DNA of 64,000 nt, taken from contig JABARV010000010.1 of the NCBI GenBank assembly GCA_019186965.1, positions 1 through 64,000 on the forward strand. Reading direction: 5' to 3'. The stretch is from Turneriella sp. Its GTDB lineage: Bacteria; Spirochaetota; Leptospiria; Turneriellales; Turneriellaceae. Of this stretch, positions 44,994 to 58,169 are shown piece by piece. Made by a program: the position numbers and the translations under genes. How positions within the stretch are numbered: the stretch's first letter is position 1; every line of letters starts with the position of its first letter. Below the pieces are notes generated by a model. That model was not told the origin of the DNA. It worked only from the letters and a program-made list of their open reading frames with translations, and made no database searches.

Positions 44994-45305
44994 GTGCATC
45001 TTGTACACATGATTGCCGAAAACATAGCCACATCGCGTTCGAATATGAGTAGCCTTTTGCGCCAAGTCAGGCACGGCGAAACGGTCATTATTCTCGATCG
45101 TGGTATGCCCGTGGCGCGGTTTGAGCCGGTCGACACATGGACAGACGACACCTATAAACTCATGGCAGCGCGCCTCGTTAAATCGGGCGATCTCATGCCG
45201 CGCAAGAAAAAACTCGGCGATGATTTTTTTGATATGCCGCTACCCGTCGATGAAAAAGGCTCGGTGCGTGCGGCACTCATTGAAGAGAGGCGTGAGGGGC
45301 GCTAA
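44994..45305 (+). CDS. Phd/YefM-like antitoxin, module 2
   Basis: 103 residues from GTG 44994, or 98 from ATG 45009, which fits the family better (MIAENIATSRSNMSSLLRQV). Then GETVIILDRGMPVARFEPVD, the standard Phd/VapB second part; the C-terminus (RAALIEERREGR) resembles that of module 1. Directly followed by its toxin. Confidence 0.8.
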   Translation: MHLVHMIAENIATSRSNMSSLLRQVRHGETVIILDRGMPVARFEPVDTWTDDTYKLMAARLVKSGDLMPRKKKLGDDFFDMPLPVDEKGSVRAALIEERREGR

Positions 45306-45731
45306 TTGATTTTCTGGGATAGCTCGGCCATAGTGCCGCTTCTCGTGAACGAACCCAAAACGCAAGAAGCACACCAATTTTTGCAAGACGATCGCACCAT
45401 GATGGTCTGGTGCATAACTTACCTTGAAGCAACCTCGGCATTGAACCGCCGCCTACGCAGCGACGGCATACACTTTGGCCATTTTCGTGCGGGCGAAGAA
45501 CGCTTAAAGAAACTCGCCGCGTCGTGGGATCAAATTCTCTTCTCCGATAGACTCACGCAACTCGCCGTGCGCATTTTGCGCACACATCCGCTACGCACTG
45601 CCGACGCGCTACAGCTTGCGGCTGCACTCATTGCAGGCGGCAACGACCCATCGCAGATAAACTTTCTTTGCTACGATGACAGGTTGAACGAAGCAGCCGC
45701 ACGCGAAGGTTTGACACTGATGGCCGCCTAA
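45306..45731 (+). CDS. vapC: PIN-domain toxin (VapC-like), module 2
   Basis: 141 residues, TTG start at the base after the antitoxin stop. PIN residues Asp in MIFWDSSAIVPLL, Glu in TYLEATSALNRR, Asp in RTADALQLAAAL and CYDDRLNEAA. Longer spacing than module 1 and different sequence, so not a recent copy. Convergent with the GxxExxY remnant, overlapping it by 4 bp. Confidence 0.85.
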   Translation: MIFWDSSAIVPLLVNEPKTQEAHQFLQDDRTMMVWCITYLEATSALNRRLRSDGIHFGHFRAGEERLKKLAASWDQILFSDRLTQLAVRILRTHPLRTADALQLAAALIAGGNDPSQINFLCYDDRLNEAAAREGLTLMAA

Positions 45732-51960: not shown

Positions 51961-52920
51961 TCACCTATTAATTTTACCTGGCAGAATAAGATTGTATGGA
52001 CGACGCAAAATTTTAGTTCGAAAAAATCTTTCTATCTTTCGAAAAAGTAAAAATATACGCCAGATAAGCGCGTCCTCTTTGTAATACGCGATAATTTCTT
52101 TTTCTGTAATAGATTTAATTTGTGGGTAGTTTTTTTGTAAATATGTATTGGCAATTATCAAAAACGGGGCGATGAGTTCTTGTTTTTTTTCTTTAAATAA
52201 ATTTGCGATTAAATCTATAATTATCAACCTAAAATTGTAGTACCTTGTTACGACATCTTTAAGAAAAAATAGTTTGATAACCCAAACTAACATAGAAGGA
52301 CAAATTCTTAAAAACAAATTTGCATCGAGTTGTTCTGCTCCATTTTTTTTCATTAGTGGCGTACTTGTATCAAGATACCTAAGTGAATCTTTTTTGTTTA
52401 GCGAAAACGACCAGTTAGAAAGTTGGCCATCCAAGCCAATTTCATTTCCAGGATTTTTTGCGTTGTATTTAACGACTTTCGCCATTGTTTCAAGAACTTT
52501 TAGCAACAATGTGTTTGCTTCTTTTATATTTATGGTATGGATTAATTTATGGCAAATGCTTTCTGGAGCAAGTAGTTTTTGGCTAAGGTATAAAACAGGT
52601 TTTCCCTGCCGAGAGGTTACTTTGTGGCAACCATAATCAGGGGTAACAATACCAATTTTACTAAGAATTTCATGGTATTCCAAGTACAACTTTTCGTAAT
52701 AGGTAGCCTCGGCTTCGGTTTCAAATAAAGCCATGCGTTTAAAAGCAATCCCCGCTAAAGGTTTTTCTTTGAATATGAATACCGTAGACATTTCGCCGTA
52801 ACCGATAATTTTTACTGCATGCTTGTTTGTTTCGGGATTTGCCGTATCCAAATTAAGTTCAAAATCCGAAAGGATATTTAGCGCATTTGTAGTAATGCGT
52901 ATTTTATTTGCTTTTGTCAT
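51961..52920 (-). CDS. Protein-kinase-fold protein of unknown function
   Basis: 319 residues. A glycine-loop-like VKIIGYGEMSTVFIFKE with downstream AGIAFKRMA (possible ATP lysine), a catalytic-loop-like GLDGQLSNWSF and a metal-loop-like LRYLDTSTP, in the order of aminoglycoside kinase or RIO-type small-molecule kinases. The His-Arg-Asp core is not canonical. The C-terminal 120 residues are basic and hydrophobic, perhaps membrane-associated. It overlaps the aminotransferase gene by 4 bp, so these act together. Which molecule it phosphorylates is unknown. Confidence 0.55.
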   Translation of the reverse strand: MTKANKIRITTNALNILSDFELNLDTANPETNKHAVKIIGYGEMSTVFIFKEKPLAGIAFKRMALFETEAEATYYEKLYLEYHEILSKIGIVTPDYGCHKVTSRQGKPVLYLSQKLLAPESICHKLIHTINIKEANTLLLKVLETMAKVVKYNAKNPGNEIGLDGQLSNWSFSLNKKDSLRYLDTSTPLMKKNGAEQLDANLFLRICPSMLVWVIKLFFLKDVVTRYYNFRLIIIDLIANLFKEKKQELIAPFLIIANTYLQKNYPQIKSITEKEIIAYYKEDALIWRIFLLFRKIERFFRTKILRRPYNLILPGKINR

Positions 52921-54215
52921 AATATAGAAATAATTCCCTTTATAACGCGGTATTTAATAGATTTCATTTTTTCAAAAGCGGTTTTGAGCGAGTTTACAAG
53001 TTCAAGAACTTCTGCGTCCGTCATAATTAATGGCGGGAGAAATTGCAAAACCTTGGGATCGTTATTTGCGTATACAGCAAAAACACCGCTATCTGCCAAA
53101 GCCTTTAAAAAAGTCCAGCATGTTGGTTTGTCTTTGAAAACTAATCCCATAAAAAGGCCAATTTGTCGGCACTCAATAAAAAAATCGTATTTAGCGGCAA
53201 GAAGTTCAAATTCGCTTTTGAGGTAATCAGCATGGCGGCTTACCCCAGACAAAAAGTCTTTATCAGATGCAATTTCTATAACTTTCATTGCAGCAAAACA
53301 TCCAATTTCACTACCACCAAAAGTAGAAATATGGATAAAGGGATCGTTTTTGAAAATAACTTCAAATTTTTCTCGAAAACAAGTTGCTGTTATGGGATAA
53401 ATTCCGCCAGAAAGTCCTTTGCCTGTAATAAAAATATCGGGTAAAATTTTATAATGTTGAAAACACCAAATTTTTCCTGTGCGTCCAAGGCCAGTTTGGA
53501 TTTCATCTAGTATGAGCAGTATATTTTTTTCGTCGCATAGTTTTCTTACTGCTTTCATGTACTGCCTGGAAAAAATGGGCATACCCAAAGTTGCAGGTAT
53601 AGTTTCCAAAATAAAGCATGCAGTGTTCTCGTCGATAGCGTTTTTTAATGCATCGATATTCCCATGTTCAATTTGCTTAAAATCGGGCATTCGGGTATTA
53701 AAAGGTGCGCTGTACTTTTCTTCACCCGCCGACATTGCGAGCCCGGTATGTCCATGGTAGCCGCCGACAATAGAAATAACTCCCGACTTTTTTGTAAATC
53801 CACGCGCTATTTTAATGGCCAGGTCCATGGCTTCCCCGCCCGAAACACCAAAAATAGTTTTGTACGTTTCTTGTTCGTTTTGGGGTAAGCTTGCATTTAT
53901 ACTTTCATTTATTTTTTCTGCTAGGAGCGCCTTAGGTCCAGAGATAAAGTGGTGGTTACCGATATCGTAATTTTGTAACGCTTCTGTTACAGCAGAAATA
54001 ACCTGTGGATTTCGGTGACCAAGGTTAAAAACCCCGCCATTGCAATGGCAGTTTAGGTATTTTTTTCCTTCTAAATCTGAAAAATAAATGCCTTGCCGCT
54101 TATCCATAACAATATCAAGGCGGTATTTTTCAAAGAACTCAGCTTTGTAACGGGCGACGTATTTTTTATACGACGTTTTAATTTGTTTTTTATTCTGTTT
54201 TTCTGTTTCAGGCAT
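52917..54215 (-). CDS. Class III PLP-dependent aminotransferase
   Basis: 432 residues. Class III features: GxNxGHRNPQVISAV-like GVFNLGHRNPQVISA, VSGGEAMDLAIKIAR, GGYHGHTGLA, ILDEIQTGLGRTG and the PLP-lysine motif ITGKGLSGG. Closest by eye to ornithine/putrescine/4-aminobutyrate-type enzymes, but the substrate cannot be fixed. It overlaps the upstream hydrolase by 8 bp and the downstream kinase-like gene by 4 bp: a translationally coupled trio. Confidence 0.88.
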   Translation of the reverse strand: MPETEKQNKKQIKTSYKKYVARYKAEFFEKYRLDIVMDKRQGIYFSDLEGKKYLNCHCNGGVFNLGHRNPQVISAVTEALQNYDIGNHHFISGPKALLAEKINESINASLPQNEQETYKTIFGVSGGEAMDLAIKIARGFTKKSGVISIVGGYHGHTGLAMSAGEEKYSAPFNTRMPDFKQIEHGNIDALKNAIDENTACFILETIPATLGMPIFSRQYMKAVRKLCDEKNILLILDEIQTGLGRTGKIWCFQHYKILPDIFITGKGLSGGIYPITATCFREKFEVIFKNDPFIHISTFGGSEIGCFAAMKVIEIASDKDFLSGVSRHADYLKSEFELLAAKYDFFIECRQIGLFMGLVFKDKPTCWTFLKALADSGVFAVYANNDPKVLQFLPPLIMTDAEVLELVNSLKTAFEKMKSIKYRVIKGIISIL

Positions 54216-55542
54216 TGATATTGACCATAGAATTTTGTCTTTTGCGGTGGAACTTATAGAAAGGCGAAAAATTGGATTTTAGATTTGCTTTTTCAAGTTT
54301 TTCTGTCCACTCGGCAATTTTGTCAAAGTGCGTTTGCAAACATTCAGAAGAAAATTTATCAAGCTTACCAAAATTTTTCTTTTTAAATAAATCTGACTCG
54401 TGTTTTATAAACGCAGCTTCTATACGATTTCTCTCTGCAAAATATAGCGATGCAGCGTTTTTATAATCTACTAAAGTTTTACGGTGGAGTTTTTCGTGCC
54501 GCCACCACAAAGAAGAATCGGGAAATTCACCGGGCGCTAAAAATTCCTCCGGGGTGATATTTTTTCCAGGAATATAAAAAGGTTTGAACAAAGAGGTGCA
54601 AGGTGCAGCAGTCCCCGTAAACCAAAAGGTAGAAGGTTGTTTTTCTCTAAGTTCTGCCACAAGCGAACCACAGGTTTGGCTTGGAGTAACAAATCCCGTT
54701 GAGTGCATACATACAGAACCCATGCTGGCTTTATTGGGCGCAAAGTTCGAATCACTAATGTTGTGCGTGCGTAGAATTTCCATTGCATCTGCAACGCCAA
54801 AGGTGTTTTGGCGTTCTTTACCGCGCATTAAAGTTGTTTTAGCCCTGCGTTTGCACATGCTAAAGGTGGTAAAAAACCAATCGGAGTAATCACGCGCAAA
54901 ATCGAAATCTACTCCCTTCTTGATAAAATTATTTTTTTCCGCAAAATGGATTAAATCTTTACTTGAAAGATCGTATTCCTTGCCGATTGTAAGTCCGTTT
55001 GAGATAGAATAAAAGTCTTTTACTTTTACGGCTGCCCATTGCTTGCCAGCCGTCTCTAAAACCCAAGCATCTTTTTTATCTGTAATAATATAGCTATTGG
55101 AATAAAACATATTTTTGTCTTTGTAGCCACCGCACGCATCTTGCCCGTATTGTTCTGTCAATTCAGTGATGAGTTCAAGGGCAGCCTCTGCTGTTTTTTT
55201 TCGTTCAAGAGCAAGGCGCAGCATATCCATACCTGTAAGGCCGTTATTTTTTTTCTCTGGCTTTATTTTTGTAAAAACAGCTTCGTTACCAATAACTAAA
55301 CCATGTTGGTTGGCGCCCATTTCTGCGCCCCACATGTGGAAGGGTTTCGATAAAATAACTTCGTAAGATTCTTTTGCTTGAGGAATTTCAATGAAGGTGG
55401 TCTTTAGCGTCTTTTCTTTGTACTTTTTTGCAGCAAAACGCACAAGAGCTTGCGCCTCATTAGGTTCTCTGTCAGAATTCTTTCCAAAAATTATATTTCC
55501 CGAACGCGTAAAATTTTTGTTAGCCACAAAGGTGTCGCACAT
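54208..55542 (-). CDS. C69/secernin-like Ntn-hydrolase (dipeptidase family)
   Basis: 444 residues. Starts MCDTFVANKNFTRSGNIIFG: Cys2 becomes the N-terminal nucleophile after loss of Met, as in peptidase C69/secernin, with GKNSDREPNEAQ following. Other family stretches are MGANQHGLVIGNEAVFT and AWVLETAGKQW. No signal peptide. In other organisms such enzymes cut dipeptides or amide-linked acyl groups. First gene of the operon with the aminotransferase and kinase-like protein, and divergent from the OmpL47-like gene. TTGACA lies 34 nt before its ATG. Confidence 0.85.
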   Translation of the reverse strand: MCDTFVANKNFTRSGNIIFGKNSDREPNEAQALVRFAAKKYKEKTLKTTFIEIPQAKESYEVILSKPFHMWGAEMGANQHGLVIGNEAVFTKIKPEKKNNGLTGMDMLRLALERKKTAEAALELITELTEQYGQDACGGYKDKNMFYSNSYIITDKKDAWVLETAGKQWAAVKVKDFYSISNGLTIGKEYDLSSKDLIHFAEKNNFIKKGVDFDFARDYSDWFFTTFSMCKRRAKTTLMRGKERQNTFGVADAMEILRTHNISDSNFAPNKASMGSVCMHSTGFVTPSQTCGSLVAELREKQPSTFWFTGTAAPCTSLFKPFYIPGKNITPEEFLAPGEFPDSSLWWRHEKLHRKTLVDYKNAASLYFAERNRIEAAFIKHESDLFKKKNFGKLDKFSSECLQTHFDKIAEWTEKLEKANLKSNFSPFYKFHRKRQNSMVNINA

Positions 55543-55609: not shown

Positions 55610-55638
55610 TTGACCGAGTATGCTTTACTTGCACAATA
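55610..55638 (+). promoter_or_regulatory. Leaderless-type promoter of the OmpL47-like gene
   Basis: TTGACC (55610-55615), 17-bp spacer, ACAATA (55633-55638), five bases, ATG 55644. The upstream ATG at 55620 lies inside this promoter, so it is unlikely to be the start. Confidence 0.5.
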
Positions 55639-55643
55639 AAATT

Positions 55644-56525
55644 ATGAGATATTTTGTAGTGGCGGTCTCCATCGTTTTTTCGCTTACCGCACAAGAGGAT
55701 AAAAAACAAGTTACGGATAAAATTTTTTCGATTAACATAGAAATGCCTGAGAATGCAGAATATACAGAAATTGAATTTTCGGATATCAACCTCTCAGAGG
55801 CAAGTGACGAAGATAAAATTTCAGGCGCTCGCGTAAACATTGTGCGCACAAAAGAAAAAATTTTTCGAGAGCGCCTTTCCAGCGAGATCCGGTTTTTTCG
55901 TGTGCGCTCCATCCATAAGACAGGCGTCGCAGGGGCGTATAGCCGCACATACCCTGTAGATGCGTATTTAGTAAAGCCGTACCGCGACGTTACAATTCCT
56001 GTAGTGCAACAGGGACAAACAGAGTACCTCTTGGGAAGCCGCATTGAGCTACCAACACAACCAAACCTCGTTACTAAATATAAAATCGGTGACGGCGAAT
56101 TTATCGAATACCGTGAACCGATTATTTTTGATAAACCCGCTACATACAATATGCTGGTAAACCTTGAGAACGAAAACAAAGAAGTAGTGTTTTCAAAAAA
56201 ATTTATTTTCAAGGTAGAGTTAAACGCGCCTGAAACACGCGCAGTTATCGCGAGCCCCATCCACTCTTCACGCGGCATCATGTTTGGTAAAGAAAGCACG
56301 TTCCTTTTTTTGGTCACCGATAATGAATCAGGGGTTGACAAAACTTTCTTTCGTGTCTTGCCCTTGGGAAAAGAAATTGTTCCCAATTCTAATAGTGAAT
56401 ACAAGAAGCGTTTAACGTACGCAGATTTATGTACGCAAGAAAAAATTACCCTTGTCGAATTTTACTCCACAGACAAAGCAGGCAACAAAGAACACCCGAA
56501 ATCGCAAGTCATTTTTTGTGAGTAG
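55644..56525 (+). CDS. Exported OmpL47-like beta-sandwich protein
   Basis: 293 residues from ATG 55644, with signal peptide MRYFVVAVSIVFSLTA. Several beta-sandwich segments; the last (VTDNESGVDKTFFRVLP and ITLVEFYSTDKAGNKE) has the DxxSGV...YSxDxAGNxE plan of OmpL47-type domains. Surface or periplasmic. It precedes the MNIO fusion gene by 12 bp on the same strand and is therefore its likely operon partner, but it has only two Cys and does not look like an MNIO substrate. Confidence 0.65.
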   Translation: MRYFVVAVSIVFSLTAQEDKKQVTDKIFSINIEMPENAEYTEIEFSDINLSEASDEDKISGARVNIVRTKEKIFRERLSSEIRFFRVRSIHKTGVAGAYSRTYPVDAYLVKPYRDVTIPVVQQGQTEYLLGSRIELPTQPNLVTKYKIGDGEFIEYREPIIFDKPATYNMLVNLENENKEVVFSKKFIFKVELNAPETRAVIASPIHSSRGIMFGKESTFLFLVTDNESGVDKTFFRVLPLGKEIVPNSNSEYKKRLTYADLCTQEKITLVEFYSTDKAGNKEHPKSQVIFCE

Positions 56526-56537
56526 ACTTTTTCCATA

Positions 56538-58169
56538 ATGCTTGGTGTTGGACTTAGGGCGAAGCACTTTCCCCATCTTTTAAAAAAAAGAGCCAAGCTA
56601 GATTTTTTTGAAATTCTTTCTGAAAATTATATAGATACCGAAGGCCGTCCGCTTTCGGTTGTTGAGCGCTTGCGCCGTGACTACCCCATGTGCATGCACG
56701 GGGTTTCACTATCCATTGGCTCCCTAAACGGTGTACGTGCAGATTATTTAAAAAAATTAAAAAACCTCGCAGATAAAATCGAACCTTTTTTAATCTCTGA
56801 TCATTTTTGTTTTACGGGATTAAAAAATTTTAACTCGCACGATTTGCTGCCGCTTCCTTTTACACAAAAGATGGTTAGTGTTTTGGTAAAAAACATCGAT
56901 TATGTACAAAATTTTTTGAAAACAACAATTGCTTTAGAGAACGCTTCGAGTTATCTCTCGTGGCGACAAAGCGAAATGCCGGAGTGGGAGTTTATCAATG
57001 AAGTTGTTCGCCGTAGCGGATGCAAAATTCTTCTCGATGTAAACAATGTTTACGTCAATGCAGTAAATCATCGTTTCAGTGCGGATGTTTTTTTAAACGC
57101 AATTAATCCAACCGATGTCGCCGAAATCCATATTGCAGGTTATAGCGATATGGAGACACACCTTTTCGACACGCACTCGATGCCAGTTTACCCCGTCGTG
57201 TGGAAGCTTTGGGAAAAATACGCGTACCGTTTTGCAAAAACACCTGCAATGGTCGAGCGCGACGACGATATTCCTGCGTTCCCTGCGCTTGAAAGGGAGG
57301 TATTGCGCATGGGGGAACTTCGTAAAAAATCTATTAAAAAAAATAATTTTACGTGCGAAAAACAAAGAACAACCGAAACTAAAAATAAACTTCAAGAAAA
57401 TTTGGCACCTGTTATCGCCAAGGCTTCAAGTGTTGGCGCATTACAGAAAACTTTTCTCGACGATATAAAAAACCAGAGTTTTATATCGCTCGATAAAATT
57501 ACTGCAGGTGGAACTCTCACTCGCAAAGCAGCGCTCCAAGTTTACCACACAGGATATACCGCAAGGCTAAGTAGCGCTCTTGAGTCTACGTACGAAGCGG
57601 TGTGGTACGTTTTAGGAGATAAGCTTTTTTTTAAAGCGTGCAAAGAATATATAAAGAAGTACCCATCGGATACGTATAACCTAAACAGCTATGGAGAGAA
57701 TTTTCCCAAATTTCTTAAAAAACGATTTGTAAAAATGGATTTTTTACCTCACTTAGCGCTTTTTGAGAAAACTTTTTATGGTTTATTTAACGCAAAAAAT
57801 CCCCAAATAAAAAATATCAACTATAACGCTATCGACCCTACAAAAACGGTGTTTAATTTTTTTTCTACAGTACACCTTCTTCACTTTCCATACAAAATTT
57901 TTACGCTATGGAAAAACAGGGCTAAAATTTCCGATGGGTATATTCCCTCACGTTTTGCCGAAGTCGAGTATCTTGTTTTATATAAAATGAACGATGCTGT
58001 TGAAATACAAATTTTAACGCACGAACAATTTCAAATAGCGCAAGCGCTCCACCGAAAAAAATCGCTTGCTGAAGCCCTTAAAGGAATTTCCGCTCCGCCA
58101 AAAAAAATACAAGAGCTGTTTGCGTCGCTTGCACAGCCAGGGATAATTGAATCGTTGTCGACAAAATAA
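56538..58169 (+). CDS. MNIO (DUF692) enzyme fused to a DUF2063 partner domain
   Basis: 543 residues. Residues 1-265 are a multinuclear non-heme iron oxidase of the DUF692 family: His54 in MHGVSLSIGS, His89 in ISDHFCF, Glu134-Asn135 in ALENASSY, Asp167-Asn170 in LLDVNNVYVNA, His178, Glu196/His198 in EIHIAGY, Asp211/His213 in DTHS and Glu240 in VERDDDIP. A linker follows, then residues about 300-540 match the DUF2063 (BufC/HvfC) partner: RKAALQVYHTGYTARLSSAL, TYEAVWYVLGDKLF, LPHLALFE. In known systems these are separate proteins that modify Cys of a peptide precursor. No precursor is next to it. Confidence 0.88.
   Translation: MLGVGLRAKHFPHLLKKRAKLDFFEILSENYIDTEGRPLSVVERLRRDYPMCMHGVSLSIGSLNGVRADYLKKLKNLADKIEPFLISDHFCFTGLKNFNSHDLLPLPFTQKMVSVLVKNIDYVQNFLKTTIALENASSYLSWRQSEMPEWEFINEVVRRSGCKILLDVNNVYVNAVNHRFSADVFLNAINPTDVAEIHIAGYSDMETHLFDTHSMPVYPVVWKLWEKYAYRFAKTPAMVERDDDIPAFPALEREVLRMGELRKKSIKKNNFTCEKQRTTETKNKLQENLAPVIAKASSVGALQKTFLDDIKNQSFISLDKITAGGTLTRKAALQVYHTGYTARLSSALESTYEAVWYVLGDKLFFKACKEYIKKYPSDTYNLNSYGENFPKFLKKRFVKMDFLPHLALFEKTFYGLFNAKNPQIKNINYNAIDPTKTVFNFFSTVHLLHFPYKIFTLWKNRAKISDGYIPSRFAEVEYLVLYKMNDAVEIQILTHEQFQIAQALHRKKSLAEALKGISAPPKKIQELFASLAQPGIIESLSTK

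Follow-up and report, generated by a model that had tools for sequence, protein, structure and literature searches.

A DUF6206 protein of predicted kinase fold and a gate-less aminotransferase-fold enzyme form a near-obligate gene pair across two bacterial phyla

What could an amide hydrolase, a pyridoxal 5'-phosphate (PLP) enzyme of the aminotransferase fold and a protein resembling small-molecule kinases be doing in one operon? This question is raised by three overlapping genes in a 64,000-nucleotide stretch of a Turneriella sp. contig (JABARV010000010.1), which we refer to as the window. The genes and their products are called C69 (the Peptidase_C69-type hydrolase), AT (the aminotransferase-like gene or protein) and K (the DUF6206 gene or protein) throughout. 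Our answer starts from AT and K, which form a fixed, near-obligate pair across two phyla, with C69 as a frequent third partner outside this core. The features of the locus are as follows:

54208..55542, minus strand: C69/secernin-like N-terminal-nucleophile amide hydrolase gene (444 amino acids; predicted nucleophile Cys2, MCDT)
52917..54215, minus strand: AT gene, encoding a class-III aminotransferase-fold PLP enzyme (432 amino acids; PLP lysine K266; T209 and Q391 in place of the gate residues)
51961..52920, minus strand: K gene, encoding a DUF6206 protein of predicted kinase fold (319 amino acids; K61, D164, N169, D184)
54208..54215, minus strand: 8-bp overlap of the C69 and AT genes
52917..52920, minus strand: 4-bp overlap (ATGA) of the AT and K genes

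The overlapping three-gene operon on the minus strand is confirmed as real, and the overlaps of 8 and 4 bp reported in the initial annotation match these coordinates exactly. Its family assignments likewise hold by Pfam: C69 matches Peptidase_C69 (PF03577, 8e-12) and AAT (PF03417, 1e-8), AT matches Aminotran_3 (1.3e-80), and the protein described as kinase-like belongs to DUF6206 (PF19709; 7e-23, 81.6 bits with a cut-off of 30.4), a family to which Pfam assigns no function; its model shows a kinase fold, and its catalytic residues do not vary among relatives. None of the three proteins reaches any NCBIfam cut-off, and membership of AT in the known class-III equivalogs was rejected, all of its scores lying far under the respective cut-offs.

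Our surveys took in two phyla, namely that of the window (spirochaetes, 393 genomes) and that of the Syntrophaceae metagenome-assembled genome L024 (395 genomes). Among all loci read, 35 have AT upstream of K in the same orientation, the two genes lying between −34 and +23 bp apart; this recurrence is far beyond chance. The initial annotation had named, as the finding that would undo its trio, genes that are neighbours in no relative, which is clearly not what the side-by-side arrangement of AT and K in these loci shows. In the window's phylum, DUF6206 was present in 20 of the 393 genomes, members of the AT subfamily (scores over about 390 bits, and one partial copy) likewise in 20, and 19 genomes carried both. 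The sole AT genome without a K match (G219) does have a K start following AT, and the contig end cuts K off at this point. The extra K genome (G170) carries a divergent DUF6206 gene with neither AT nor C69 adjoining. This gene (L026, 8119-8961) has the top DUF6206 score of the phylum sample (163.9 bits), its product lacks the glycine-rich loop, and it shows no link to an aminotransferase; it perhaps represents a second DUF6206 lineage with a different role. For the second phylum, K scored above the cut-off in 15 of the 395 genomes, and AT was found upstream in 13 of these (the exceptions being L123 and L126). Two more divergent K genes (L045 and L136, both included in the 35 loci) also follow a divergent AT, and the pairing has therefore survived duplication. 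The pairwise distance matrices of AT and K are correlated (r = 0.86). A search of plasmid records returned no K.

In keeping with the class-III (subgroup II) PLP enzymes, AT conserves the Aminotran_3 PLP residues, that is, the lysine K266 and the aspartate D237. The closest solved sequence is the Escherichia coli putrescine aminotransferase PatA/YgjG; in the alignment, its K300 corresponds to K266 and its Gln274 to Q240, so that the pocket Gln is kept, while the gate residues Glu243 and Arg426 correspond to T209 and Q391. Glu243 and Arg426 of PatA are equivalent to E235 and R413 of ornithine aminotransferase (OAT), the gate pair that handles the carboxylate of 2-oxoglutarate/glutamate (PMC4244111, PMC5372011). 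The codons of these AT residues, together with that of the catalytic-loop Asp of K, are located as follows:

53589..53591, minus strand: Thr209 codon of AT, aligned with the gate Glu (OAT E235 / PatA E243)
53043..53045, minus strand: Gln391 codon of AT, aligned with the carboxylate-binding Arg (OAT R413 / PatA R426)
53418..53420, minus strand: Lys266 codon of AT, the PLP Schiff-base lysine, aligned to PatA K300
52429..52431, minus strand: Asp164 codon of K, the catalytic-loop Asp (DGQLSNW), present in 36/36 relatives

Both gate residues are replaced in all 34 K-linked ATs in which these sites could be read (motifs ExxPATxG and Q-x2-P), whereas Glu and Arg are kept in 8/8 of the K-less AT paralogues read, one of which resides in the same genome as a K-linked AT (L140, G000:C10). 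Because the gate pair is lost in the K-linked copies and kept in the K-less ones, AT probably does without the second half-reaction usual in class-III transaminases; the Glu-Arg ion pair that marks a 2-oxoglutarate-dependent transaminase of the OAT/PatA type is absent from it. The pair is also absent from the two solved class-III phospholyases, which carry Thr and Lys (5g4i) or Cys and Lys (6tor) at these places, and AT shares the Thr at the gate-Glu place with 5g4i. Compared with phospholyases of the ETNPPL/A1RDF1 type, AT agrees in the missing gate pair and disagrees in its closest sequences, which are not the solved phospholyases.

K has no sequence-level relative in the PDB, profile search included. 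The structure prediction that the initial annotation had proposed for this protein returned a kinase-fold AlphaFold2 model (from four sequences; predicted local distance difference test score (pLDDT) 83.9, predicted template-modelling score 0.83), and Foldseek matched it to protein kinases and APH(2'') with probabilities of 0.93-1.00, at template-modelling scores of only 0.3-0.4. K is thus predicted to have a kinase fold, as in the protein-kinase-like (PKL) superfamily. The N-lobe Lys K61, D164 and N169 of the catalytic loop (DGQLSNW) and the DFG-like D184 are invariant in 36/36 relatives, and we take K61 as the Lys binding adenosine triphosphate (ATP), D164 as the catalytic Asp, and N169 and D184 as metal-binding. 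Because these four residues are kept throughout, K looks active-site-complete and not degraded. Its catalytic loop is atypical in that it is without the HRD His, and the glycine-rich loop is atypical, too. The C-terminal tail LPxKIxR (window 51964-51987, and relatives) is almost as conserved as the catalytic residues, its Arg being found in 36/36, and was modelled with low confidence. Many spirochaete copies of K (L031-L044) are of a long form of about 510 amino acids, in which some 190 additional residues at the N-terminus form a domain without a Pfam match.

The link to C69 is looser. The window protein carries the Cys nucleophile after the initiator Met (MCDT), and Cys2 is found in 28 of 30 relatives; because it reaches 51.8 bits on the NCBIfam C69 dipeptidase equivalog, under the cut-off of 250, we do not call it a dipeptidase. 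A structure model built from three sequences had a pLDDT of 36 and plays no part in our argument. C69 lies near AT-K in nine loci of the first set read, on the opposite strand in L023, and in most remaining AT-K genomes it sits elsewhere in the genome. Nonetheless, it is present in 18/20 genomes with AT-K and in 42/373 without them in the window's phylum (Fisher p 3e-14), and in 12/15 and 17/360, respectively, in the second phylum, where it is often unlinked (p 2e-12), although these p values overstate the case, genomes being non-independent. As the same pattern appears in two phyla, it does not depend on one clade. In K-less genomes, no conserved neighbour of C69 was found, and a K profile search of ten C69-bearing genomes counted as K-less, run without a positive control, returned no K. 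Given the lack of a conserved neighbour outside AT-K and a mixed tree, C69 is a frequent partner and not part of the core. Of the co-localisation of three families that the initial annotation had wished to see checked, the AT-K adjacency was therefore borne out, whereas C69 is often unlinked to the pair. As a separate observation, a glycerate 2-kinase (DUF4147/MOFRL) gene lies beside AT/K/C69 genes in two distant lineages (L115, 5260-6648; L030, 2681-3853). Glycerate kinase, DUF2126 amidoligase, Amidohydro_3 and MFS neighbours were kept out of our model, each occurring only once or twice.

Related gene rows were found in other bacteria. On the Thioclava plasmid L146, an amidase, a C69 protein, an APH phosphotransferase and a class-III enzyme form one row, and this class-III enzyme is closest to the solved phospholyases 5g4i and 6tor, by nearly fifty E-value orders of magnitude or more. 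The amidase-C69-APH row is located beside a divergent solute ABC transporter on both Thioclava plasmids (L146, L149); the phospholyase-type gene follows the row in one of these two strains and is not in the row in the other. Gate-less AT relatives occur near an APH kinase, an SDR and RidA on a plasmid of Pseudomonas sp. MPC6, directly after a type I phosphodiesterase on a Phyllobacterium plasmid, where phnF and a phn-type protein are close by, and likewise beside a type I phosphodiesterase in Mesorhizobium.

From these features we infer a lyase rather than a transaminase activity, an order of steps and a kind of substrate. On the likeliest reading, to which we give a probability of roughly 40%, the operon would encode a short route of amino-alcohol degradation or salvage, in which C69 frees the compound, K phosphorylates it and AT eliminates phosphate and ammonia. 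Judging from its family, C69 would hydrolyse an N-acyl, peptide or glutamyl-type amide, yielding a compound in which a hydroxyl neighbours a primary amine. The residues and fold of K suggest that it could phosphorylate the hydroxyl of the freed amino alcohol using ATP, and the gate loss and the analogies suggest that AT might be an ammonia-phospholyase that acts at the amine and gives an aldehyde by eliminating first phosphate, then ammonia. The initial annotation had the amine released, transaminated and only then phosphorylated. Phosphorylation followed by PLP-dependent elimination now appears more likely than that order, since AT is without the Glu/Arg gate and a C69-kinase-phospholyase-type operon exists on the Thioclava plasmid, and there is no specific evidence in support of the polyamine or lipid head group suggested as a product.

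Several observations weigh against the degradation or salvage route. In sequence, the putrescine and acetylornithine transaminases are closer to AT than the solved phospholyases are (PatA 3.5e-59 vs 6tor 6e-29), and AT has Gln, not the Lys of phospholyases, at the gate-Arg position. C69 also occurs without AT-K, and its tree intermixes copies from genomes with and without the pair. In the spirochaete loci, whose neighbours were mostly not annotated singly, AT-K was not seen to have an aldehyde dehydrogenase, transporter or RidA conserved beside it, and the data indicate no substrate. Some of these points favour the main rival, which we consider rather doubtful. It follows a biosynthetic order: AT would genuinely transaminate, its acceptor or donor being unusual (other than Arg-bound 2-oxoglutarate/glutamate), K would phosphorylate the resulting amine, for example for a lipid or glycan head group, and C69 would trim a precursor. 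The closest solved relatives of AT are indeed transaminases, its Aminotran_3 PLP residues are intact, the glycerate 2-kinase adjoining the cluster in two loci hints at a polyol, and no catabolic genes were seen conserved nearby. However, both gate residues are lost in every K-linked AT and in 0 of the K-less paralogues read, the solved phospholyases show the same loss, and the gate-less AT relatives have phosphoester, phosphonate or kinase genes nearby.

The functional unit might also consist of AT and K alone, with C69 as a loosely linked housekeeping hydrolase that has its own role. The presence of C69 homologues without AT-K in about 40 of the genomes sampled from the window's phylum, their varied neighbourhoods, the mixed tree and the many AT-K loci without C69 alongside all speak for this separation, which we nevertheless judge improbable in view of the strong genome-level co-occurrence in two phyla, even unlinked, and of the Thioclava C69, which sits in a kinase/phospholyase operon. 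Finally, K could be a protein kinase, an adenosine monophosphate transferase or a pseudokinase that regulates AT and not a small-molecule kinase, given that its best fold matches are protein kinases, that the pairing is strictly one-to-one and that the conserved LPxKIxR tail could be a docking motif. Such a role seems very unlikely, as the glycine-rich and catalytic loops are atypical (no HRD His) and APH-type phosphotransferases fill the same slot in Thioclava and Pseudomonas.

In the window, the trio is flanked by mnmH (below, on the K side) and an OmpL47-like gene (above, on the C69 side), both on the plus strand, and C69, AT and K are therefore a self-contained unit. Promoter and terminator scans gave results at chance level or barely above. 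The OmpL47-like protein gene (55620-56525) lies immediately upstream of a single open reading frame of 543 amino acids (56538-58169, plus strand), in which an MNIO domain (MbnB/TglH/ChrH) is fused to a DUF2063/HvfC-type partner domain of ribosomally synthesized and post-translationally modified peptides; the MNIO part scores over the cut-off for the bufferin maturase BufB. Two small genes at 44994-45731 (plus strand) resemble a VapBC-type antitoxin and a PIN toxin, as judged from their translations alone.

Beyond this locus, the amino-alcohol route leads to a broader and more tentative proposal, namely that the DUF6206 proteins may constitute a new kinase family acting on amino alcohols, that their near-obligate AT partners may be a second branch of class-III phospholyases that evolved independently, and that the two together may break down an undescribed amino alcohol with an amide linkage in spirochaetes and Desulfobacterota. 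DUF6206, a domain without known function, would thereby gain a definite role that can be tested, and a whole branch of 'aminotransferases' that lost the transaminase gate would be annotated anew. If true, the kinase-then-phospholyase opening of amino alcohols arose more than once from unrelated parts, and an amide-linked amino alcohol would be used by these bacteria.

How does this compare with known systems? In the hydroxylysine pathway, which is known in animals, the APH-type hydroxylysine kinase (HYKK) acts first and is followed by 5-phosphohydroxylysine phospholyase. Ethanolamine-phosphate phospholyase (ETNPPL) is a class-III PLP enzyme that eliminates phosphate and ammonia (PMC8233209). 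As proposed, the window trio would share with HYKK/ETNPPL the phosphorylation of an amino alcohol by a kinase and the elimination of phosphate and ammonia by a class-III PLP enzyme, and the gate Glu/Arg is absent from ETNPPL as it is from AT. In contrast, the kinase there is APH-type and not DUF6206, AT belongs to a separate branch nearer to putrescine transaminase, and C69 is added in the window. PbfA, another class-III enzyme annotated as a transaminase, is in fact a lyase with changed key specificity residues (PMC8154272). Unlike the proposed AT reaction, that of PbfA uses a phosphonate, releases water and ammonia and needs no kinase, and AT scores 207.6 with a family cut-off of 525. PatA/YgjG resembles AT in the PLP lysine and the pocket Gln274, and differs in having Glu243/Arg426 where AT has Thr/Gln. 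The Thioclava L146 operon, of which we know no experimental study, likewise lines up a C69 (33.5% identical to that of the window), a kinase and a class-III enzyme lacking the gate, yet with another kinase family and another class-III branch. AT-K appears to work like a kinase-phospholyase system and yet stands outside the known phospholyase family, of which AT is not a member because its closest sequences lie elsewhere. While the kinase-plus-phospholyase logic is already known, the kinase family, the PLP-enzyme branch and their near-obligate pairing are new here.
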